From Prasinococcaceae sp. CCMP 1430 (lineage: Eukaryota; Prasinodermophyta; Palmophyllophyceae; Prasinococcales; Prasinococcaceae), in NCBI GenBank assembly GCA_013416795.1, contig RQSC01000025.1, positions 346,328 to 410,327 of the forward strand: a stretch of 64,000 nucleotides of DNA. The letters are read 5' to 3'. Positions 16,354-50,762 of this stretch are shown here, piece after piece (within the stretch, counting starts at the first letter, position 1; every line of letters starts with the position of its first letter). The translations under genes and the position numbers were made by a program. The notes beneath the pieces are model-generated. The model saw only the letters and a program-made list of their open reading frames with translations. It made no database searches and was not told the origin of the DNA.

Positions 16354-18867
16354 TCACTTGCGCTTGCGCGCGGACCGGCGCACGGGCGAGGCCGCCTCCT
16401 CGGGCTGTGCCGCCACCGGGATCACCGCTTCGTTGGGCTCATCGTTTTGGAGGCGCTTGAGTGCCAGGGGCACACTGGGGGAATCGACGCTGGGTGCTGC
16501 CCCGGCACTGCGCTTGCGTGAGCGCGTGCTGCGTGCCGAGGTGGGATCGCTCGGTAGCGCTTTGGTCGCCCCTGTCCGCGCCACAGCTGTCTTGGCAGTC
16601 GCGCGAGCAGTCGGCCGCCGCAACTTGCTCCCCCTCCCAGCGGTCTTTGCATCGATCGTTGCAGTAGAAGCAACAGGTTCCACGGGGGTGGCCTCCGGCG
16701 CCGGCGGGCCCTCGTCGCGAGCGGCAGTCTGGGCAGCCTCGCTCAGACGCCGCAGCAAGTCGGCCTTGCGGCCAGTCGTGGGAAGGCCGCGCGCCCCCAG
16801 CTCGCGCTCCAACTCGGCCACTTTCATTGCAGACATCTCCTCCTCGGAAGGGAAAGGAGTGCTTGTGGTCGCTGGCAGCGCAGGCGTCGCGGTTGTAGGC
16901 GCAGGGGTTGCCTCCGGCTCCGGCGCGCCCTCGTCGCGAGCGGCAGTCTGGGCAGCCTCGCTCAGACGCCGCAGCAAGTCGGCCTTGCGGCCAGTCGTGG
17001 GAAGGCCGCGCGCCCCCAGCTCGCGCTCCAACTCGGCCACTTTCATTGCAGACATCTCCTCCTCGGAAGGGAAAGGAGTGCTTGTGGTCGCTGGCAGCGC
17101 AGGCGTCGTTGCAGTCTGGGCAGCAGCTAGCCCGGACACAGCTTCGGCTCCGCGCTGGCGACTCGAGCGCCGGCCGGCGCCAGAGGTGGGTGCGACCGAA
17201 GGTGCCGATGCCTGTACCGGCTCCGGCGACTCAATCGCTGCCTCGCTCGGGGTTGGCACAGCACGGCTGGCACGCCGAGACCGCTTTGCTGGCGGGGCCG
17301 CGTCTTCCTGAGCCCCGAGGCCAATCTCGGCACCGCCTGCTGGCTCCGCCGCGTCGACACTGATGCGCTTCGAGGATCGGCGCCTCTGAGGAGACACAGC
17401 GTCACGCGAGGCGACCTTCTCTGCTACGCCGCGCTCCTTGTCCTTGCGCTTGCGTGAGCCTCGCGGAGACTTTCCTGCCGGAGACTTTCCTGCCGGGGAC
17501 TTTCGCGCTTGTGCAGACGTGTGCTTGGCCTCCGCGTGTGACGCCTTCGCGTCCTGTAGGATCTTCTCCTTGTCCGCAATAGCTTTCTGACGTATCGCGT
17601 CCGCCTCAGCCTTCGCCGAAGCGAGCACGTCCTGCGCCTTCAGTTTTGCAGCAGCCAGCGCCTCTGTTGCGTCCCTATGCGCTGCTTCAGCCTCCTCGCG
17701 CCTGCGCGCAGCATCAGCTCGAGCCGATTCAGCCGCGGCAAGTTTTTCGGAAAGCTGCACCTCCTTCTCAGAAACGGCCGCTTCATGCGCCTTGAGGGCG
17801 CCCGCACGGCTTTCAAGCTGCGCACTCTGGACTCGCAGCTGTTCCATCCGATCCTCGTATTCCTGCCGCTCCTGCTCGGCGAGCGCGCGTGCCTCCTGGT
17901 GTGCCGTTTCTGCGAGCGCGGCGGCCTCCATTCGCTCTGTGGCCTTCGCCATTTCGCGGCGTGCGGCGGCTTTCGCAGCTTCTTGGTCGGCTGCTGCCGC
18001 CGCGACGCGAGCTCCTGCGTCTCGTGTTGCCGTGTCCGCTGCGGCTGTTGCCACCTCAGCCTTGGCCTGAGCCGCCTTCATCGCCGCCTCCATCTTGCCG
18101 CTCTGGGCCTCGGCGGCGAGGGCCCTTTCCTCCGCGCTCCTCCTCGCCTCGACGAGCTTTGCAGCCTGCGCTTCGTGGGTCTTAAGCGACGCCGCCTCAT
18201 CCGCTGCAATCTTCCTCGCAGCCTCTTCGGCGGCTTCGATCTTCTGCTCGGCCTCCAGCGCGCGCTTGCGCCACTCCTCGACCTGCGACGACGCCATGCT
18301 CATCTGGAGCTCGGCCTCATTGCTTCTCTGGGCGGCTTCGGCCATGGCCTTCCTTGAGTTGGCATCGACCTCGTCGATACCCGCGTGCGCAATCTCCAGC
18401 CGCTCCAAAAGGTCGTTGCGCTCGACGGTGTACTCCAGCCGCTCCGTCTCGAGCGCAGCAATGCGCCGTTCCATCTCCTGAGCGCGCGCGCGACTCACTG
18501 TATCACCTGAAGTCCCGCCACACGCGCCAAGGGCGCCGCGATCGCGGAATGTGTCCCACACCGAGCGAACGGGAGGCACCGCGGCCGAGGCGGGACGCGG
18601 CTGCGGCCTTTCGGTGAATTCTTCGCCTGCCTCATCCAGCGACGAGAAAAGCGGCATGCGCATGCCGAGCGAAGCGTACGCCCTCTTGGCGCGCGCGCTT
18701 GAGAATGCGCCCCCGGACGCTGGAGGCTCGCGTGGCTGTGGCGTGGCCGCCGCGGCGGTGGCAGCCGCAGATACCAAGAGCGCGCCCGCGCCTTCCAGAC
18801 CCTCGCCACCTGCGCCGGGCGATGCAGCGAAAAGCGGGTTCGTAGCGCCGAGCTCGGCCATCACCAT
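16354..18867 (-). CDS. Coiled-coil protein with two tandem SAP domains
   Basis: Single exon, 837 aa from MVMAELGATNPLF. The frame is open 41 residues further up, but those lack character. Residues about 120-460 are a continuous Ala/Glu/Lys/Arg coiled coil (ERRIAALETERLEYTVERND onward). A short tandem repeat KSPAGKSPAGKSPRGS and several KR-rich clusters (SRKRKDKER, KRSRRASR) are likely nuclear localisation and CDK-site sequence. Two SAP motifs (EMSAMKVAELERELGARGLP ... GRKADLLRRLSEA) lie at about 610-650 and 683-723, near-identical to each other. The C-terminus is basic (SPVRRSARKRK). SAP domains bind scaffold-attachment DNA or RNA, so a nuclear, chromatin-associated structural role is inferred. 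No known orthologue recognised. Confidence 0.75.
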   Translation of the reverse strand: MVMAELGATNPLFAASPGAGGEGLEGAGALLVSAAATAAAATPQPREPPASGGAFSSARAKRAYASLGMRMPLFSSLDEAGEEFTERPQPRPASAAVPPVRSVWDTFRDRGALGACGGTSGDTVSRARAQEMERRIAALETERLEYTVERNDLLERLEIAHAGIDEVDANSRKAMAEAAQRSNEAELQMSMASSQVEEWRKRALEAEQKIEAAEEAARKIAADEAASLKTHEAQAAKLVEARRSAEERALAAEAQSGKMEAAMKAAQAKAEVATAAADTATRDAGARVAAAAADQEAAKAAARREMAKATERMEAAALAETAHQEARALAEQERQEYEDRMEQLRVQSAQLESRAGALKAHEAAVSEKEVQLSEKLAAAESARADAARRREEAEAAHRDATEALAAAKLKAQDVLASAKAEADAIRQKAIADKEKILQDAKASHAEAKHTSAQARKSPAGKSPAGKSPRGSRKRKDKERGVAEKVASRDAVSPQRRRSSKRISVDAAEPAGGAEIGLGAQEDAAPPAKRSRRASRAVPTPSEAAIESPEPVQASAPSVAPTSGAGRRSSRQRGAEAVSGLAAAQTATTPALPATTSTPFPSEEEMSAMKVAELERELGARGLPTTGRKADLLRRLSEAAQTAARDEGAPEPEATPAPTTATPALPATTSTPFPSEEEMSAMKVAELERELGARGLPTTGRKADLLRRLSEAAQTAARDEGPPAPEATPVEPVASTATIDAKTAGRGSKLRRPTARATAKTAVARTGATKALPSDPTSARSTRSRKRSAGAAPSVDSPSVPLALKRLQNDEPNEAVIPVAAQPEEAASPVRRSARKRK
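16691..17108 (-). repeat. Tandem 219-bp in-frame duplication of the SAP-domain coding block
   Basis: Two copies, 16691-16889 and 16910-17108, are offset by exactly 219 bp (73 codons) and differ at only a few bases near the left edge. Each encodes one SAP domain plus the Thr/Pro linker. Because the unit is a multiple of three, the frame is kept. Confidence 0.85.
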
Positions 18868-19845
18868 CGTCGTAGCCGCGTGGCACGGCGCTCGGCGGCG
18901 GCGGGGGCTGCGCCGGCGGCTGCAGCGCGCTCCAGGCTGGGCGCGCGCCGCTGTGCACGGAGTGGCGCCGCCCGCGCGTCCCCGCCACATAGGGCACGGC
19001 CGGAGGCGCCGCGCGCCGAGTCGCCGCGAAAACGCGCGCGCGCCCTTTTTTTCCCCCTCCCCCCGGGGGAAATAAACAAAATAAAAAGCGCCAAAAAATG
19101 GGCGCGGAAAAAACTCGGCGCGGCGCGCGGCGCGCGCGAGCGCGGCTGGAGGGTGACACGTCGGGTGCCACGCTGCAGACTCCCCCGGTGTCAGCCAGGC
19201 CAGCCAATAGTAGCTATTGGAGTGACTTGGGACTAGTCCATGTCAGCGCGGCATGTGATCATTCCGAATTGATGCCGGGGATGGCGGCCGGACCGGTCCC
19301 GGGCAGATTCGGTCTGCGCAATCGGGATCCTCGAATCCTATCTGGCGCGCGCGGGCGAGCGAGGACCGCAGCAGGCCCCCGAAAAGCGCGCCGCGCAATC
19401 GCGCCGGCGATGATAATTACAGGCGCTGGCTGGAGGGCGCACGCAATCGCGCGCGCGCGCGGCGGCCAGCCGCCCTTATCCTCTGCGCCGCGCGCGCAGA
19501 GGCGGCGCGCGCGCGGGGCGCAAACGCAAGGCCCAGCGCGCGCTGCTGCGGCGGCCGCTTCTGCCGCGCCACACGCGCACGCGCCCTCGCGCACGTTCGC
19601 AGGCTTGCGCGCGCGAGCGCACATACGCTTCCCCGGCTTGCCCCCGCTCCAGGTTCCCTCCCCCGCTCGCGCCTAACCAGCACACCCACACATCAACCAG
19701 CCCCACACCCCTTCCGCTCAGTCCTTCGCACCCATCCGCGCACGCAACTTGCCTCTTCCTGGCGCGCTGCTGACGCTCCGTCGGCGAGGATCGAGAGCCA
19801 CGCACGCGCACAAGGACGCGCACACGACACGTGACCATCGTGCCG
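18868..19845. other. Divergent intergenic region
   Basis: About 1 kb between the SAP and TLC gene starts. Contains an A/T patch around 19049-19090 and ATAGTAGCTATTGG near 19207. No coding signal that I can support. Confidence 0.4.
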
Positions 19846-28012: not shown

Positions 28013-28095
<83 letters not shown>

Positions 28096-29913: not shown

Positions 29914-31090
29914 GGGGGCGCGCCCCCGTCACCGCGCGGCCGCCGATCACTTGTGCTGATGGTATGCCTCACTCAAACACATGGACGGCCGGCCCCCATA
30001 ATTATTCGGCCTTGTCGTCGATTTTCCTGCCAGAGCCGAACCCGCCGCCGCACCGCGCCTGCGACTGCACCCCCCCCACATACAGACCCCCCCCCCCAAA
30101 AATTGGTATCGTGGTTTTCCTACTCAAGTTCGTACTGTACAGTGTACTGTTCGACGCAGCTTGATTGATGGGCATGTTCCTCGTCGTGCGGGCCATGTGG
30201 TCAGCATTGCGCGCCCGCGCCCTCCGCCGCTGCCCCTCTCCCCCCCCCCCCCTCTCCTCTGCCCTCCCGCCTGGCTGGCGGTGCCCCCCCGGCGCGCCGT
30301 TGGTCAGCCCGCGTCGATTCCTGGCCCACCGCGGGCGAAGCGCCTTTTCCCGCCGCGGACCCCGCACGATCGTCGGCCGGCCGGCCGGCGATTTCCCCCT
30401 TGGCTGGCTTGGGTCCTGTCCGCCCCTGGACTGATTGGATTTCCGTTTCCATTCGTCTGCTCGTGCGTCTGTCGGTCGGTCTCGGTCTCGGTTTCGTTCT
30501 GGATCTCGATCTCGATCTGTGGCTGTGTGTGTGTCTGTGGCTGCGACGCGGCGCGCGGCGCGCGCTCGGCCGGAGCGAGCGGCTGCCGCGGCGGCGATCG
30601 GTCGGTNCGCGAGGATGGCGATGTAGTCGAATGAGCGCGCGCGCACAGGCACGCGCGCAGGCGCGCTCGTCGCACAGGCACACGCACGCACGCTTGCACG
30701 CATGGTCGCACACACACCTCCCTCACCCCCCAGTCGAGCACGAATGCGACGGCGCCCGAGAACTCAGCGCGAGAGAGCTGCCGCCGCGCAGGGGTGCCGG
30801 GCGCGCCGCTTGCGCTTGCGGGGAGGCCAAGGCGGCGGGTCCACGCAAGTGGCGTTGCGCGGCGGTGCGTGCCCGTGCGCCCGCGCCGCCCTGCGAACCG
30901 CGCTGCGCACCGTCGCTCTGAGAAACCCTAGCGGGCGTACTGAATTCGCGCCGGGGAGGTTGCGAGGCGTGCGCAACCGTCGCGGGTGCAGCCGGCGGTG
31001 GTGCGCCAGCCGCGGAAGAGGCCTATCATCTTGACGAGGATCCGACTGACCCTAGCCCCTACGCGCAGGTCTCACGCGGCGCGTGCAGTC
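29914..31090. other. Intergenic region with N gap
   Basis: About 1.2 kb between the TauE-type and MetH genes, with an N at 30607. Contains C/G runs, a self-complementary AGTACA/TGTACT cluster near 30129-30150 and CT/GT-rich stretches. A short minus-strand frame ends near 30002 with a protein-like tail (GFGSGRKIDDKAE) but cannot be linked to a gene. Confidence 0.35.
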
Positions 31091-34000
31091 ATGAGCACGC
31101 TCAGTGCCTCGGGCGCCAAGGTCGTCGCACAGCTGATGCGCCTTGCGAAGGCGAACCCGGCACTCGCTGTTGGGTCACTCGCGCTGCTGTGGCCTGCGCT
31201 CAGTGTCGCGAGCGTGAGCTTCGTGCTCCTCCTGCCGCTGCTCATCCCGGCATCCGTCATCGCTCTTGCCGGCATCGTATTCTACAAGTACGTGGGCGCA
31301 GGCAATGCACACACTGCAACGCCGGCGCCAGAGGCGAAGGAGCAGGCACCTGCCGCAACCGCCGCGGCGAGCAGCGATGACCTGCCGCCAGCGCCGAAGG
31401 AGCAAGCACCTGCCGCACCCACTGCGGCAAGCAGCGAAGACCTCCCGCCGGTGCCCGTGTACAAGCAGTGGGTCGACCCCATCCCCGAGAACGAGACGTT
31501 CGACCAGCTCCGCAAGATCATGGACGAGCGCATCATCGTGATTGACGGCGCGATGGGCACGTCTGTGCAGAAGTACAAACTGGAGGAGGAGGACTACTGC
31601 GGCACGCTGTATCCCGACCACTCGGTGGACCTGAAAGGAAACAACGACCTGCTGGTGCTCACCCGCCCGGACGTCATCGAGGAGATCCACAACAACTTTC
31701 TCGAGGCGGGTGCGGACATCATTGAGACAAACACCTTCAACGGCACGTTCATCTCGCAGGGCGACTACAACATGGACACGTACGACGAGGTGTTCGCGAT
31801 CAACAAGGGCGCGGCCGAGCTGGCGAAGAAGTGCACGACTGCGTGGACCCAGAAGGACCCGTCGAGGCCGCGCTTCACCGCCGGTGCCATCGGGCCCACC
31901 AACAAGACTCTGTCGGTGTCGCCGTCGGTGGAGAACCCGGCGTTCCGCGGCTGCACGTGGGACGAGGTGGTGAAGGCGTACTACGAGCAGTGCGAGGGCC
32001 TCATGGCCGGCGGCGTTGACCTGTTCTTGGTGGAGACCATCTTCGACACGCTGAACGCCAAGGCCGCGCTGTTCGCCATCGACAAGTTCTTCGCTGACAA
32101 GAAGTGCAGGATTCCCGTGTTCGTGTCAGGCACCATCGTGGACAACTCGGGGCGCACGCTCTCCGGCCAGACCAACGAGGCGTTCTGGAACTCGCTGGCG
32201 CACAGCAAGCCGCTGGCGATCGGCCTGAACTGCGCGCTCGGCGCAGACGACATGAAGCCGTACGTCGAGAACCTGAGCAGCTGCGCGGACTGCTACGTCT
32301 TCTGCTACCCCAACGCGGGCCTGCCCAACGCGATGGGTGGTTATGACCAGAAAGGTGACGAGTTCGCCGAGGAGATCCGCCCCTTCATGGAGGCCGGCAT
32401 CCTCAACGGCATCGGCGGCTGCTGCGGCACCTCTTTCGAGCACATCAAGGCCGTCGCGGACATGGCCAAGGAGTATCAGCCGCGCGCGTGCCACGCCGTC
32501 AAGTCGCTCATGCGCCTGTCCGGCCTCGAGCCGCTGAACTACGAGCCGTGCCTGAGCAACATGCGCTCCACTTTCCTGAACGTGGGCGAGCGTTGCAACG
32601 TGGCGGGCTCGAGCATCTTCAAGAAGGCCATCGTGGACGGCAACTGGGACAAGGCACTGTCCATCGCCGTGAAGCAGGTCGACGCGGGTGCGGACGTTGT
32701 CGACATCAACGTCGACGACGGGCTGATCGAGCCCATCGGCGCGATGACCAAGTTCGTCAACCTGCTGGTGTCGGATCCCGAGGCCTCCAAGATGCCCTTC
32801 ATGATCGATTCGTCCAAGTTCCACGTGGTTGAGTGCGGCGTCAAGTGCTGCCAGGGCAAGTCCATCGTCAACTCGATCTCGCTCAAGGAGGGCGAGGAGG
32901 CGTTCATCAAGAACGCCAGGATGGTGAAAGCGTTTGGCTCGGCGGTGGTAGTGATGGCGTTCGACGAGAACGGTCAGGCCGCGACCTGCAAGGAGAAGGT
33001 GTCGATGTGCCAGCGCGCGTACAAGATCCTCGTGGAGGAGGTCGGCTTCAACGCGCAGGACATCGTGTTCGACCCGAACATCCTGACGATTGGCACGGGC
33101 ATGGCGGAGCACAACGACTACGCGGTGGACTTCATCAACGCCACGCGCGAGATCAAGCGCACCTGCCCGGGCTGCAAGATCTCTGGCGGCGTGTCCAACC
33201 TGGCTTTCAGCTTCCGTGGCAACGAGCCGGTGCGCCGCGCGTGCCACAGCGTGTTCCTGCACTACGCCTGTGCCGCGGGCATGGACATGGGCATCGTCAA
33301 CGCCGCCCACTGCATCGAGGACAAGTACGAGAACATCGACAAGGAGCTGCTCGGCTACGTGGAGGACCTCGTGCTCAATCGCTGCGACAACGCGACCGAG
33401 CGCATGCTCGAGTACGCCGCCACGCTCGACCCCAAGTCCAAGCCGTGCGCTCTGCGCAAGAAGGATGAGCACAAGGCCTTCGTCGCTGCTCCCAAGATCA
33501 ACGAGCACGGCGTCGACCGTATCGCCGAGCCCGATGCGAGCACGCTCGTCCCGGTGCCCGTGTACAAGCAGTGGGTCGACCCCATCCCCGAGAACGAGAC
33601 GTTCGACCAGCTCCGCAAGATCATGGACGAGCGCATCATCGTGATTGACGGCGCGATGGGCACGTCTGTGCAGAAGTACAAACTGGAGGAGGAGGACTAC
33701 TGCGGCACGCTGTATCCCGACCACTCGGTGGACCTGAAAGGAAACAACGACCTGCTGGTGCTCACCCGCCCGGACGTCATCGAGGAGATCCACAACAACT
33801 TTCTCGAGGCGGGTGCGGACATCATTGAGACAAACACCTTCAACGGCACGTTCATCTCGCAGGGCGACTACAACATGGACACGTACGACGAGGTGTTCGC
33901 GATCAACAAGGGCGCGGCCGAGCTGGCGAAGAAGTGCACGACTGCGTGGACCCAGAAGGACCCGTCGAGGCCGCGCTTCACCGCCGGTGCCATCGGGCCC

Positions 34001-37000
34001 ACCAACAAGACTCTGTCGGTGTCGCCGTCGGTGGAGAACCCGGCGTTCCGCGGCTGCACGTGGGACGAGGTGGTGAAGGCGTACTACGAGCAGTGCGAGG
34101 GCCTCATGGCCGGCGGCGTTGACCTGTTCTTGGTGGAGACCATCTTCGACACGCTGAACGCCAAGGCCGCGCTGTTCGCCATCGACAAGTTCTTCGCTGA
34201 CAAGAAGTGCAGGATTCCCGTGTTCGTGTCAGGCACCATCGTGGACAACTCGGGGCGCACGCTCTCCGGCCAGACCAACGAGGCGTTCTGGAACTCGCTG
34301 GCGCACAGCAAGCCGCTGGCGATCGGCCTGAACTGCGCGCTCGGCGCAGACGACATGAAGCCGTACGTCGAGAACCTGAGCAGCTGCGCGGACTGCTACG
34401 TCTTCTGCTACCCCAACGCGGGCCTGCCCAACGCGATGGGTGGTTATGACCAGAAAGGTGACGAGTTCGCCGAGGAGATCCGCCCCTTCATGGAGGCCGG
34501 CATCCTCAACGGCATCGGCGGCTGCTGCGGCACCTCTTTCGAGCACATCAAGGCCGTCGCGGACATGGCCAAGGAGTATCAGCCGCGCGCGTGCCACGCC
34601 GTCAAGTCGCTCATGCGCCTGTCCGGCCTCGAGCCGCTGAACTACGAGCCGTGCCTGAGCAACATGCGCTCCACTTTCCTGAACGTGGGCGAGCGTTGCA
34701 ACGTGGCGGGCTCGAGCATCTTCAAGAAGGCCATCGTGGACGGCAACTGGGACAAGGCACTGTCCATCGCCGTGAAGCAGGTCGACGCGGGTGCGGACGT
34801 TGTCGACATCAACGTCGACGACGGGCTGATCGAGCCCATCGGCGCGATGACCAAGTTCGTCAACCTGCTGGTGTCGGATCCCGAGGCCTCCAAGATGCCC
34901 TTCATGATCGATTCGTCCAAGTTCCACGTGGTTGAGTGCGGCGTCAAGTGCTGCCAGGGCAAGTCCATCGTCAACTCGATCTCGCTCAAGGAGGGCGAGG
35001 AGGCGTTCATCAAGAACGCCAGGATGGTGAAAGCGTTTGGCTCGGCGGTGGTAGTGATGGCGTTCGACGAGAACGGTCAGGCCGCGACCTGCAAGGAGAA
35101 GGTGTCGATGTGCCAGCGCGCGTACAAGATCCTCGTGGAGGAGGTCGGCTTCAACGCGCAGGACATCGTGTTCGACCCGAACATCCTGACGATTGGCACG
35201 GGCATGGCGGAGCACAACGACTACGCGGTGGACTTCATCAACGCCACGCGCGAGATCAAGCGCACCTGCCCGGGCTGCAAGATCTCTGGCGGCGTGTCCA
35301 ACCTGGCTTTCAGCTTCCGTGGCAACGAGCCGGTGCGCCGCGCGTGCCACAGCGTGTTCCTGCACTACGCCTGTGCCGCGGGCATGGACATGGGCATCGT
35401 CAACGCCGCCCACTGCATCGAGGACAAGTACGAGAACATCGACAAGGAGCTGCTCGGCTACGTGGAGGACCTCGTGCTCAATCGCTGCGACAACGCGACC
35501 GAGCGCATGCTCGAGTACGCCGCCACGCTCGACCCCAAGTCCAAGCCGTGCGCTCTGCGCAAGAAGGGTGACGTAGTGGAGAAGGTCGTGGAGAAGGGCT
35601 CGTCATGGCGTGACAAGTCCGTGCAGGACCGCCTGAGCCACTCCCTTGTGAAGGGCATCGACGAGTTTGTCGTGCGCGACACCGAGGAGGCGCGCACGTG
35701 CGGCCTTTACCCGCGCCCGCTGCACGTCATCGAGGGCCCGCTCATGGACGGCATGAGCACCGTCGGCGACCTCTTCGGCGCGGGCAAGATGTTCCTGCCG
35801 CAGGTGATCAAGTCGGCGCGCGTGATGAAGAAGGCCGTGGCGCACTTGATCCCCTTCATGGAGGAGGAGAAGCGGTTGATGGCCGAGCAGGAGGGCATTG
35901 ACGCCGACGCCGACAACTCTGTGGGCACCTTTGTGATTGCCACCGTCAAGGGTGACGTGCACGACATCGGCAAGAACATCGTGGCGGTGGTGCTGGGCTG
36001 CAACAACTGGAAAGTGATCGACCTCGGCGTGATGTGCTCGTGCCAGTCCATCCTCGACGCGTGCAAGGAGCACAACGCGGACATTCTGGGCCTCAGCGGC
36101 CTTATCACTCCTTCGCTGGACGAGATGGTCACCGTTGCCAAGGAGATGGAGAAGGCGGGCTTCAAGATCCCGCTTCTCGTGGGCGGCGCAACCACCAGCC
36201 GCATGCATACGGCGGTCAAGCTGACCCCCCAGTACAGCGGACCGACCGTGCACGTGCTCGACGCCTCGCGTGCGGTGCCGGTGTGCTCGTCACTCATTGA
36301 CGAGAAGCAGTACGCCGAATTTGTCGAGGACACGCGCGAGACGTACAAGGAGATGCGCGAGGAGTTCTACGCCGGCCTCGAGGACCGCAAGTACGTTTCG
36401 CTCGAGCAGGCGCGCGCCAAGGCGCTCACGGTTGACTTTACCACGCCCGAGAACACGCCGGTGACGCCCAAGCAGCTGGGCGTCCACGTCCTGCGCGACT
36501 TTCCCATCGAGGAGGTGGTCGATTACATCGACTGGAACCCCTTCTTCCAGGTGTGGCAGCTGCGCGGCCGCTATCCGAACCGTGGCTATCCCAAGATCTT
36601 CAACGACGAGACTGTCGGTGCCGAGGCGAAGAAGCTCTTCGACGACGCACAGACCATGCTCAAAGACATCATCGCGCACAAGAAGCTTTCGCTGCGCGGC
36701 GTGCTCGGCCTCTTCCCGGCCAACTCCGTCGGTGACGACATCGAGGTGTACGCCGAAGACGGCGAGCGCGGTGCGCCCCGGGCGAGCTTCTACACCCTGC
36801 GCGAACAGGCCGAGAAGGAGAACACCAGCGAGCCCTACCTTGCGCTGGCGGACTTTGTGGCTCCGAAGGAGAGCGGCGTGAAAGATTACGTGGGCGCGTT
36901 CGTCACATCGGCCGGCTTCGGCCTCGAGGAGATGACCAAGGCGTTTAAGGCGGACAACGATGACTACAGCTACATCCTCGCTGAAGCGCTCGCGGACCGT

Positions 37001-37399
37001 CTGGCGGAGGCCTTCGCCGAGGTGGTGCACATCAAGATTCGCAAGGAGTACTGGGGATATGCGCCCGATGAGGACCTGTCGCCCGACGACCTTCTCAAGG
37101 TTAAGTACGACGGCATCCGCCCGGCGCCGGGCTATCCGTCGCAGCCCGACCACACGGAGAAGAACACCATGTGGGAGCTCATGAAGGTCGCCGAGGAGAC
37201 CGACGTGACGCTCACCGAGTCGCTCGCCATGCTGCCGGCCGCCTCGGTGTCTGCGCTCGTGTTCGGCGGCAAGTGCTCGAAGTACTTCGCCGTTGGCAAG
37301 ATCACCGACGAACAGGTGCAGGACTACGCCGCGCGCAAGAAGATGGACGTCAAAGAGGTCGAGCGGTGGCTCGCGACGAGCCTCAACTATGAGCCTTGA
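31091..37399 (+). CDS. METH: Cobalamin-dependent methionine synthase with duplicated catalytic modules and N-terminal hydrophobic segment
   Basis: Single exon, 2,102 aa; the usual MetH length is about 1,230. The frame is open to 30986, but the first ATG is 31091. Order: N-terminal leader, hydrophobic segment (about 38-75, [20 protein letters not shown]), Ala/Pro linker with two KEQAPAA...DLPP units, then [homocysteine domain + pterin domain] twice (about 120-792 and 821-1493) separated by a unique 29-residue linker. Then come the cap and B12 domain ([10 protein letters not shown] near 1620, His ligand motif DxHxxG) and the AdoMet-activation domain ([12 protein letters not shown] near 2010). 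Both copies keep the zinc-ligand motifs GLNCALG and GGCCGT, and the folate motifs [12 protein letters not shown] and [12 protein letters not shown]. It transfers methyl from methyl-tetrahydrofolate to homocysteine. Only one B12 and one reactivation domain serve two catalytic pairs. Confidence 0.92.
31448..33464 (+). repeat. Methionine synthase module duplication, copy 1
   Basis: 2,017 bp that reappear, identical as far as I can read, at 33551-35567 (offset 2,103 bp, 701 codons). Encodes one homocysteine and one pterin domain. Confidence 0.9.
33551..35567 (+). repeat. Methionine synthase module duplication, copy 2
   Basis: Second copy of the 2,017-bp unit. It is followed by the natural continuation into the cap/B12 domain, while copy 1 is followed by an unrelated 86-bp linker (33465-33550). 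Confidence 0.9.
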
Positions 37400-37507
37400 G
37401 ATGGTGGTAGTTGTCCCTGTCTTTCAGCGAGGTGGAGATGTGCGTCGTCCGCCGGGTGTCTTCTGTCGTGGTCGGGTTCCGCGCGAAGCTTATTCTTTGG
37501 TGGCTTG

Positions 37508-37512
37508 TGTAA
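37508..37512 (+). terminator. Putative poly(A) signal TGTAA (MetH gene)
   Basis: TGTAA 109 nt after the MetH stop, in a T-rich 3' region. Confidence 0.5.
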
Positions 37513-37584
37513 GATTTGTTACAGTCTGTTCTACGAATCTGTGTCGTGCTCGTGTTCGTGTGGGCGGGCGGGCGGGCACTTTGT

Positions 37585-37589
37585 TTACA
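37585..37589 (-). terminator. Putative poly(A) signal TGTAA (U-box gene)
   Basis: TGTAA on the minus strand, 133 nt past the stop at 37722. Confidence 0.5.
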
Positions 37590-37721
37590 CACATAGCTAA
37601 GATGCCAGCGATTCTCTCCCTAGTAGTCACCTGGCGAAGGGCGCGTCGGTCACGAGAGAACGCGCCCTGTGCGCACTGTCCGCGGGGGCAAGCAACGCCA
37701 CGCACGTGAAAGACTTGGCAG

Positions 37722-39102
37722 CTAGACCGGGCACTCGCCGAGCGGGGCGTGCTCGTGCTGGCAGAATCCCTCGTGCACTCCTTCAAGCTCTGATTCAGCC
37801 GCGACGGCCTCAAGGAAAGCCTGCACCACCTTGACGATCTGTTTGTGCTCATCGACCCTGCCTGTGGCGAAGGTCACGGCATCAGCTACGGATGAGCCCG
37901 ACGATCTCACCTGAATAATCCCGTCGTGCGGGGCCCAGAACGGAGTATTATTAGGAGATTTGAGCAGGTGTGGTTGATCGGTGCGCGGGATGTACCAGTC
38001 AGGTCATTTTCATCCAGCCACACTATGCGCGTGCGCTCGCGCACGCGCGCACACGAACGCGCAGTGCGTACGCTCGCTCACCTCAACCATGCCCGGCACT
38101 GCGTGGACTTCCGGGTGCGCGCCCAGCTCGACGCTGCGCTCGTACACCTCGACTCCGGCCACCTCCCATGCCACTTGCGCGCTTCCCCCCGTGGCTCTGT
38201 CCATGGCGACCGTCAGCGTCGCCGTCGCCCCTGAAACCGAGGCCGCCTCGGTGCCAGCGGCCGTCGCCAGAGACGCCCCCGCCGCCCAGAAGGGCGCGGC
38301 GAACGCCACGAAGAGGAGCGGCGCGCCGCCGTCGAGCGACGACCACGTCCACGCCGCGACGGTGAGCAACCACGCCGCGCTAAGCCCGACCAGCGCGCCG
38401 GTCGCAGGCGTCGGATCGCGCGGCAGGGCAACCAAGCGCATTGTCCCGTTCCCGTATGTCTGCGAGTGGTCAACCTCGAGGTTGAATCTGCGCGGCAGGG
38501 GCACGAGCTCCCCGCGCGGGAGACCGCTCTCAAGCACGCCCCCCGGCGCCACCATGTACACGCTGCTGACGTCGGCGGCACCAGCGGCGGCGCCGTAAGC
38601 ATCCACATCAAAGCCTCTCGTGTCCGTGCCGTCACGAACGGCCTCCAGCGGGTGCAGCACGCCGATCAGGGCGGCGGACATCACCACCAGCAGCGCAGCA
38701 GCAGCACGGTGGGCGCTCAGGTTTTCGTCACGCACGTTGTCGTCGTCCTCCCAGTCGTCCGCTTGGCCAGGCTGGCCGAGAACGAGGTCCGCAGCCCACT
38801 CGGCAGCCTCTGCGGCTGAAAAGAATGACCTGTTTCGACGGTGTTGGTTGCGCCAACGAGCGCGGCCGCGCCTCCTCTTCCTGTGGTCCTTTCCAACGAT
38901 GACGTCGCCATGTGCTAGAGGGAAAAGGGGGGGTGGGGGGTGGGGGGAAGGGGGGGGGCGCCTGTGGGTCAGCATCGAGCGCGTGGGCTCGGCCACGCTT
39001 GTGGACGCGCGCTTGTCTGTGTGCGCCATGCATCGTCGCCCGTGGTGGAACTGGGGGGATATTTGCGAGGTGCTCTCGAGGGGGGGGAGGGGGGGGGGGG
39101 AA

Positions 39103-39137
<35 letters not shown>

Positions 39138-39693
39138 CTGTCGCCCGCCCCGGTCCCACCACAGCGGACGCCCTGGCGCCAGCGCCTGACGTCTGACGCC
39201 TGCACGCACCATCGTCGCTTTCTGAGCCCGAGTTTCCAGTGCTGCTTTCGCTACCCTCCGCTGGTGGGGGGACATCGTGCCCATCCCAACCTGGAGGTAC
39301 GAAGTCCGGGTGCTCGGAGAGGAAAGCCTGCACCTCCCTGCGCTTGTCCCAGTTGGTGTACACGCGCGTCGAGCGCAGCAGCCGGTTTGTGAACGGGTCG
39401 CGCAGCCGCCTTGGCCTCGCCGCGTGGCCGCGTCCCATGGCCTCGCCGCCCGCGTTCTCCTCCTCGGCGCCTCGCGCAGTGGCCAACGTGGCCCAAAACG
39501 ACTTGAGCGCCTCGCGCTCGTACGTCGTCCCTGACTCGGGCACGAACACAGGGTCGCGAAAGAGGCCGCGAGTCACCGGGCAGCAGAGGTGCTCTGGCTC
39601 AGTTGGCGACACGAGCGACACGCACTCCGTCGCCTCGGCCATGGGGGAGGCGAGGGGTCGGCGGCCCTTTGGGTCTGTCCGAGGGGGCGCCAT
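37722..39693 (-). CDS. U-box E3 ubiquitin ligase-like protein with transmembrane segments
   Basis: Three exons: 39210-39693, 38082-38914, 37722-37910 (introns 295 and 171 bp; donors GTGCGT and GTGAGC; phases 1 and 0). Product 501 aa. The N-terminal U-box starts HLCCPVTRGLFRDPVFVP, then TTYEREALKSFW, and closes with DPFTNRLLRSTRVY and KRREVQAFLSEHPDF after a Gly/Glu-rich insertion. Membrane spans in exon 2: AAAALLVVMSAALIGVL, ALVGLSAAWLLTVAAW and PLLFVAFAAPFWAAGASLA. A soluble loop of about 80 residues with an NGT sequon lies between the first two. The C-terminal exon is helical (QIVKVVQAFLEAVAAESELE). The U-box recruits ubiquitin-loaded E2, so this is a candidate membrane quality-control ligase. 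The first intron contains the long G run, so its length is uncertain. Confidence 0.7.
39080..39137. repeat. G-rich homopolymer tract inside U-box intron
   Basis: G runs broken by a few A; the last 35 nt are pure G. Length likely unreliable. Confidence 0.85.
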
Positions 39694-39712
39694 TGGGCAC
39701 CTCCAGCGGAGA

Positions 39713-39713
39713 T

Positions 39714-39751
<38 letters not shown>
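39713..39751. repeat. (TG)n(AG)n compound microsatellite
   Basis: About 13 TG units followed by about 7 AG units, just upstream of the U-box start. Confidence 0.9.
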
Positions 39752-39752
<1 letters not shown>

Positions 39753-39942
39753 TGGGTGGGGGTGGGGCAGGGATGTCTGCCTTTCCTCTTGCCTCGCCTC
39801 GGGCGTGTGCGTGCGTCTCTTTCTCGGCGCGGCGCGCGCCGCGCGCGCGCGCGCGCCGTGTGGCGAGCGTCGCACGTGCAGTGTGGCCGTTTCGTTTCGT
39901 GGAGGAGCGTGCGGCTGGGGGGCGTTGGTGGGTGGGTACGGG

Positions 39943-40310
39943 GCGCTCTACAGTGGGCTGTCCGCAGCCATCATGCGGCAGTGCACATACACGACCGCTC
40001 GCATGGGCGTCTTCAGGTCGCTGAGCGACTGGCGGTCGGAGAGCGCGCACGGCGGCGCAGCGCTGCCGGTGGCGGAGAAGGCGCTCTGCGGGCTCGCCGC
40101 CGGCTTCATCGGCGCCTTCGTCGGCACGCCGGCGGACCTGACGCTTGTGCGCATGCAGGCCGACGCCATGCGACCGGTAGCCGAGCGACGCAACTATCGC
40201 GGCGTCTTTGACGCGCTCGCCCGGGTCGTGCGCGAGGAGGGAGTCCTCAATCTCTGGCGAGGCTCTGGGCCGACCATCGCGCGCGGCATGGTGGTCAACA
40301 TGGCCCATCT
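39943..40310 (+). CDS. Fragment of a mitochondrial 2-oxoglutarate/malate-type carrier (SLC25A11-like)
   Basis: About 122 codons of clear carrier sequence: ALYSGLSAAIMRQCTYTTAR, then EKALCGLAAGFIGAFVGTPA with PADLTLVRMQADAMRP (second carrier signature), then YRGVFDALARVVREEGVLNL and WRGSGPTIARGMVVNMA. This matches the middle third of oxoglutarate carriers, including the RQ-TYTT-R block. The frame stops at an N (40311). The first repeat with its PMDLVKTRMQ-type signature and the third repeat are missing: upstream lies the opposite-strand U-box gene, and downstream the eIF3c gene. Either the assembly collapsed here or this is a broken copy. No acceptor site is obvious at its left end. Confidence 0.7.
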
Positions 40311-40484
40311 CNTCCGACCGCGCGCGGGGGGTGGCGCACGATCGGCGCGCAGGGGTGGGTGGGTGGGCGGGTGGGGTGGGGTGGGGTGGGGTGGGTGTCG
40401 CCAAACGGTGCGCGTCTGACGGCGCGTGTCGGCCACAACTGGACAGGAGGCCGCCCCCTGGCCCCGCCCCACCTCGTGGGCACC

Positions 40485-50731: not shown

Positions 50732-50762
<31 letters not shown>

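Follow-up and report, generated by a model that had tools for sequence, protein, structure and literature searches.

Does the methionine synthase (MetH) gene of the alga Prasinococcaceae sp. CCMP 1430 truly encode two identical Hcy:Fol units in front of one cobalamin domain, or did assembly double a stretch that the genome holds once? The window, that is, the whole stretch of 64,000 nucleotides analysed here, forms the final 64 kb of contig C71 in an assembly of 24,521,569 bases and 145 contigs; the features of the gene are collected in Table 1. A single frame, open from stop to stop for 2151 codons (30944-37396) and closed by TGA at 37397-37399, holds the domains in the order Hcy-Fol-linker-Hcy-Fol-Cap-Cob-Act, and translation from the first in-frame ATG (31091) gives 2102 aa. 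Pfam recognizes two S-methyl_trans (2 x PF02574) and two Pterin_bind domains (2 x PF00809), together with one each of B12-binding_2 (1 x PF02607), B12-binding (1 x PF02310) and Met_synt_B12 (1 x PF02965), which places the full MetH set of Hcy, pterin, Cap, B12 and activation domains in one chain. The first-pass annotation had described two identical 2,017-bp blocks in one open frame, a product of 2,102 residues and a doubled Hcy-Pterin part before a single B12 and AdoMet part, and this description holds: direct alignment of the blocks shows no mismatch in 2017 bases, and the frame stays open throughout.

Table 1. Features of the putative double-headed MetH gene, in window coordinates
Feature	Position	Strand	Basis or detail
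Double-headed methionine synthase open frame	30944..37399	+	frame; NCBIfam TIGR02082, NF007024
N-terminal extension: hydrophobic stretch, then Pro/Ala-rich linker	31091..31447	+	hydropathy, repeats
Copy 1 of the 2017-base block	31448..33464	+	Hcy Pfam 31535-32464; Fol/pterin 32585-33301
Copy 1 zinc Cys codons	GLNCALG motif start 32222; GGCCGT motif start 32414	+	
86-base linker, in frame, coding-type codon usage, single assembly match	33465..33550	+	
Copy 2, identical to copy 1	33551..35567	+	zinc Cys motif starts 34325, 34517
Cap PF02607 (35624-35848) and cobalamin-binding PF02310 (35927-36202)	35624..36202	+	Pfam; DVHDIGKN motif
AdoMet-binding activation domain PF02965	36506..37342	+	Pfam

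The identity of the protein is clear from its family scores, which cover the entire chain, both heads contributing: 2502.8 bits for TIGR02082 (cut-off 1010.85) and 2809.6 bits for NF007024 (cut-off 1497). Copy 2 through the C-terminal part covers positions 2-1182 of the 1182 in TIGR02082; judged by this match, copy 2 and the C-terminal half form a complete MetH, and copy 1 is therefore the extra unit. We take the Hcy cysteines to be zinc ligands and DxHxxG to have its role in Cob. Both copies retain the three zinc cysteines, and these residues do not vary in any of the 71 bacterial frames that were aligned (from 80 bacterial loci, 9 of which gave no usable frame); the D-H-G residues of DxHxxG occur in all 61 bacterial frames that have that column. 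Most of the Fol positions checked match bacteria (63/63, or 60/63 at one), but at one position the alga carries D in place of the E found in 60 of 63 bacteria.

Upstream of copy 1, the N-terminal extension has a strongly hydrophobic stretch (mean hydropathy 2.63 across 19 residues), followed by a Pro/Ala-rich linker with two 60-base repeats that are 85% alike (31326-31385 and 31386-31445). No Pfam match was obtained for 31088-31501 at E values up to 5, and the extension could be an anchor or targeting signal of the predicted enzyme. Separately, copy 2 holds an in-frame Met, and the sequence as read would thus permit a shorter, single-headed product.

The canonical MetH layout has one Hcy:Fol pair per Cob domain, and here there are two pairs and one Cob. 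With canonical MetH/MTR (TIGR02082; best PDB sequence match 9ssp_A) the protein shares the five domains, their order, the zinc cysteines and DxHxxG; it differs in its second, identical Hcy:Fol unit, in the N-terminally placed linker of ~29 residues and in the hydrophobic N-terminal extension. The two-domain Hcy:Fol protein of PDB 1q7m, presumably from T. maritima, is matched by Hcy and Fol, with the best stretch running from copy 1 Hcy to copy 2 Fol; unlike that protein, the algal one is a complete MetH that carries an additional Hcy:Fol unit, fused in frame.

The same layout was sought in other genomes. No second Hcy or Fol unit occurs in any of the 80 best bacterial loci (tblastn, E 1e-10). 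Among 395 genomes from the phylum of a Spirosoma locus, PF02574 matched in 374, and the matches listed include no double-headed layout, the longest open frame listed being 1402 aa. A Fol-linker-Hcy query matched in 363 of 398 genomes from the phylum of an Acinetobacter locus; among the matches listed, none spans Fol through the linker to Hcy (longest listed frame, 1497 aa), and the two listed rows that reach furthest in front of Hcy, starting at query residues 256 and 271, past the point where the Fol match ends, run across stop codons. Among the papers listed in literature searches, no title or abstract opening reported a double-headed MetH. The 80 best bacterial matches start within residues 3-27 and stop within residues 657-672 of the block's 672, and the breakpoints of the duplication lie outside the conserved Hcy:Fol unit, in linkers. 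A passage in PMC10567725 describes Hcy:Fol as moving as a rigid body and the Fol:Cap linker as mobile.

Compared without gaps, the linker between the copies is 33% identical to the 86 bases that precede copy 1 and 23% identical to those that follow copy 2, in neither case a meaningful similarity; the first-pass annotation had already called it unrelated to the sequence before copy 1. A simple tandem slip, which that annotation had also set aside, can be rejected, the linker resembling neither flank. It is not an intron either, since it begins with AT, ends with TC and lacks GT-AG ends. Nor was it copied from nearby: the longest word that it shares with the window is 13 bases on the plus strand and 15 on the minus strand, and 60 random 86-mers average 15.4. 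A word search of the whole assembly, which skipped very common words, matched only the linker itself and yielded no donor; a donor may sit in a gap. When codon usage in this MetH gene serves as the yardstick, the linker reaches +15.0 in the frame of the enzyme and -1.1 to -64.0 in the other five, and therefore looks like coding DNA read in its own frame. This score is attained by 1.2% of 5000 random 84-mers taken from the window outside the gene, and stretches of 28 codons from the C-terminal part, which belongs to the training set, score 6.1 to 36.4.

Taken together, these observations make it fairly probable, in our estimate, that the locus is a MetH gene whose N-terminal Hcy:Fol unit was recently duplicated in frame, with breakpoints in linkers, giving a double-headed enzyme. 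Adjacent direct copies split by sequence absent from both flanks were found, as in tandem duplication with junction filler; tracing of the filler to a donor came out negative. This reading fits better than gene conversion or a two-locus chimera, because the same contig carries two further duplications that are nearly identical and have short spacers. Comparing C71:1-200000 plus the window with itself gave 14 rows, three of them, including the MetH block, at 98% identity or more; the other 11 are below 98%, and several come from one repeat array. BLAST extends the MetH pair by four bases and one mismatch. By direct comparison the blocks end sharply, the adjoining base on each side already differing between the copies.

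One of the two further cases lies in a SAP-domain gene (16685-17108), where 205-base copies, 98.5% identical, stand 219 bases apart with a spacer of 14; the gene is a minus-strand frame (16354-18990, 878 aa) with two SAP domains by Pfam. The other, at C71:132331-132669, is a 147-base duplication at 98.6% identity with a spacer of 45, and by eye its first copy seems to hold the final codons and stop of a gene. Like the MetH case, both consist of near-identical direct copies and a short spacer; they differ from it in length (205 and 147 bases versus 2017), in carrying 3 and 2 mismatches, and, for the second, in lying at the 3' end of its gene. Both should be short enough to be resolved by ordinary reads, and duplication with a short spacer therefore seems to be a genuine process on this contig. 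The spacing of the MetH copies, 2103 bases or 3 x 701, makes one block plus linker 701 codons; divisibility by 3 is weak evidence, because it holds for 13 of the 14 self-comparison rows (several of them from one array). As a separate observation, a 47-base stretch at C112:49358-49404 is identical to the Cap region of MetH at 44 of 47 positions; no other convincing match to the gene was found in the 3-kb locus around it, and the fragment may be a sign that pieces of the gene have been copied elsewhere.

The explanation that weighs most against a real duplication, and that we nonetheless consider rather unlikely, is an assembly artefact: the alga would have an ordinary single-headed MetH of ~1401 aa, and the assembler would have added the block and linker once more, for instance through a false loop or in closing a scaffold gap. 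Perfect identity of the copies with sharp ends would suit such an error, as would the runs of N, from 1 base to 9.9 kb, on this contig (12 in C71:1-200000 and 4 in the window), the long C or G runs, and the failure to find a homologue of the same layout among the bacterial loci and listed genome rows searched. However, a random misjoin would rarely give a linker that is single in the assembly, coding-like and in frame at both joins, and the breakpoints fall in linkers. Moreover, 30608-40311 contains no N. In a scan of 236,777 called bases (C71:1-200000 plus the window) for exact direct repeats of at least 60 bases, the longest after the MetH block measured 182 bases, and such assembly errors are therefore not common in the scanned stretch. 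On balance, the duplication is likely to be real rather than an artefact. As to sequence quality more generally, some of the N runs may not be assembly gaps at all, and the long C or G runs at 28014-28095 (82 bases, ending at a single N), 39103-39137 (35) and 50732-50761 (30) may mark contig ends or sequencing artefacts.

Because the copies are identical, sequence alone gives no copy number, and the assembly might represent the shortest walk through a longer or variable array, with three or more heads or a number that differs between cells or alleles. We regard this as improbable, and it overlaps with the preferred reading. Each further block and linker would add 701 codons in frame, and short-read assemblies would be unable to count such loops; nothing in the sequence, however, calls for more than two heads.

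Still less probable is an older duplication whose heads stayed identical through gene conversion or recurring unequal exchange as the linker and N-terminus drifted apart, which would account for a linker resembling neither flank but is not needed, because identity reaches the last base at both ends where conversion would usually leave worn edges, and which has no relative of this layout to show its age. A chimera of two MetH loci is unsupported: a whole-protein search of the 24.5 Mb assembly found one MetH locus only, and the third PF02574 match is a separate 225-aa frame with part of the domain, 24.5% identical across the aligned part. An allelic second contig was rejected as well, a 6-kb query (the C-terminal part and downstream sequence) having matched nothing but fragments of 47 and 35 bases apart from the locus itself. 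Thus, of the interpretation first offered for this locus, the architecture and the odd linker stand, whereas the two-locus chimera finds no support and gene conversion, proposed among the likelier origins, is superfluous.

The setting of the gene is that of an alga that is probably dependent on B12. No match to MetE (PF01717) was found in the assembly, where a gap could hide one; the MetH gene is therefore probably essential, so that selection would remove broken variants. The lack of a MetE match agrees with statements in PMC7455551, according to which P. coloniale shares the B12 requirement, and in PMC11439496, where Palmophyllophyceae are named among cases of obligate B12 need. Excluding Ns, C71:1-200000 has a GC content of 69.1%; for the Prasinoderma coloniale assembly, PMC7455551 gives 69.8% GC, 25.3 Mb and 22 chromosomes. 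The same source reports a kynureninase/3-hydroxyanthranilate dioxygenase fusion in that species, and in the present assembly the two enzymes are fused in one frame on the minus strand of contig C73 (1111-3447 of the extracted locus). LHC-family genes gave 22 matches, and two of six translated look green-type by eye. These features suggest a Prasinoderma-like alga; given the 22 chromosomes of the published assembly, the present one would be a different assembly or come from a relative. Among viral contigs, there were two pattern matches, neither of them a relative, and Rfam returned no match in the window at gathering scores.

If the duplication is real, its origin and working can be sketched as follows. 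A break-repair or template-switch event would have left the 86 bases as filler at the junction, and breakpoints placed just outside the rigid Hcy:Fol body would have allowed the protein still to fold. Copy 2 with Cap-Cob-Act would work as an ordinary MetH, its single Cob shuttling between Fol for methyl pick-up, Hcy for methyl delivery and Act for reactivation. Copy 1 would be an extra head, held by a presumably flexible tether that runs from the Fol tail across the linker into the Hcy lead-in, and might also be visited by the Cob domain of its own chain or of a neighbouring molecule. We tentatively suggest, while considering it rather doubtful, that this is a natural double-headed MetH in which two tethered Hcy:Fol units share a single cobalamin domain, offering twice the substrate sites per scarce B12, or in which heads act across neighbouring molecules, in an alga that needs external B12.

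The double-headed form would be a variant of a known enzyme, conditional on its confirmation in DNA or RNA. Should it prove an assembly error, the locus would serve as a useful warning that a repeat may be false even when it keeps the frame, has no stops and lies in a gene that is probably essential. If it is real, nature can copy the Hcy:Fol body of MetH as a cassette, and the protein would provide a ready-made test of what limits turnover: the traffic of Cob between the heads, or the chemistry of the heads themselves. Much of the interest lies in the fact that the layout sits in the only MetH found in a probably B12-dependent alga; a real double-headed MetH would bear on how such algae handle a scarce vitamin.
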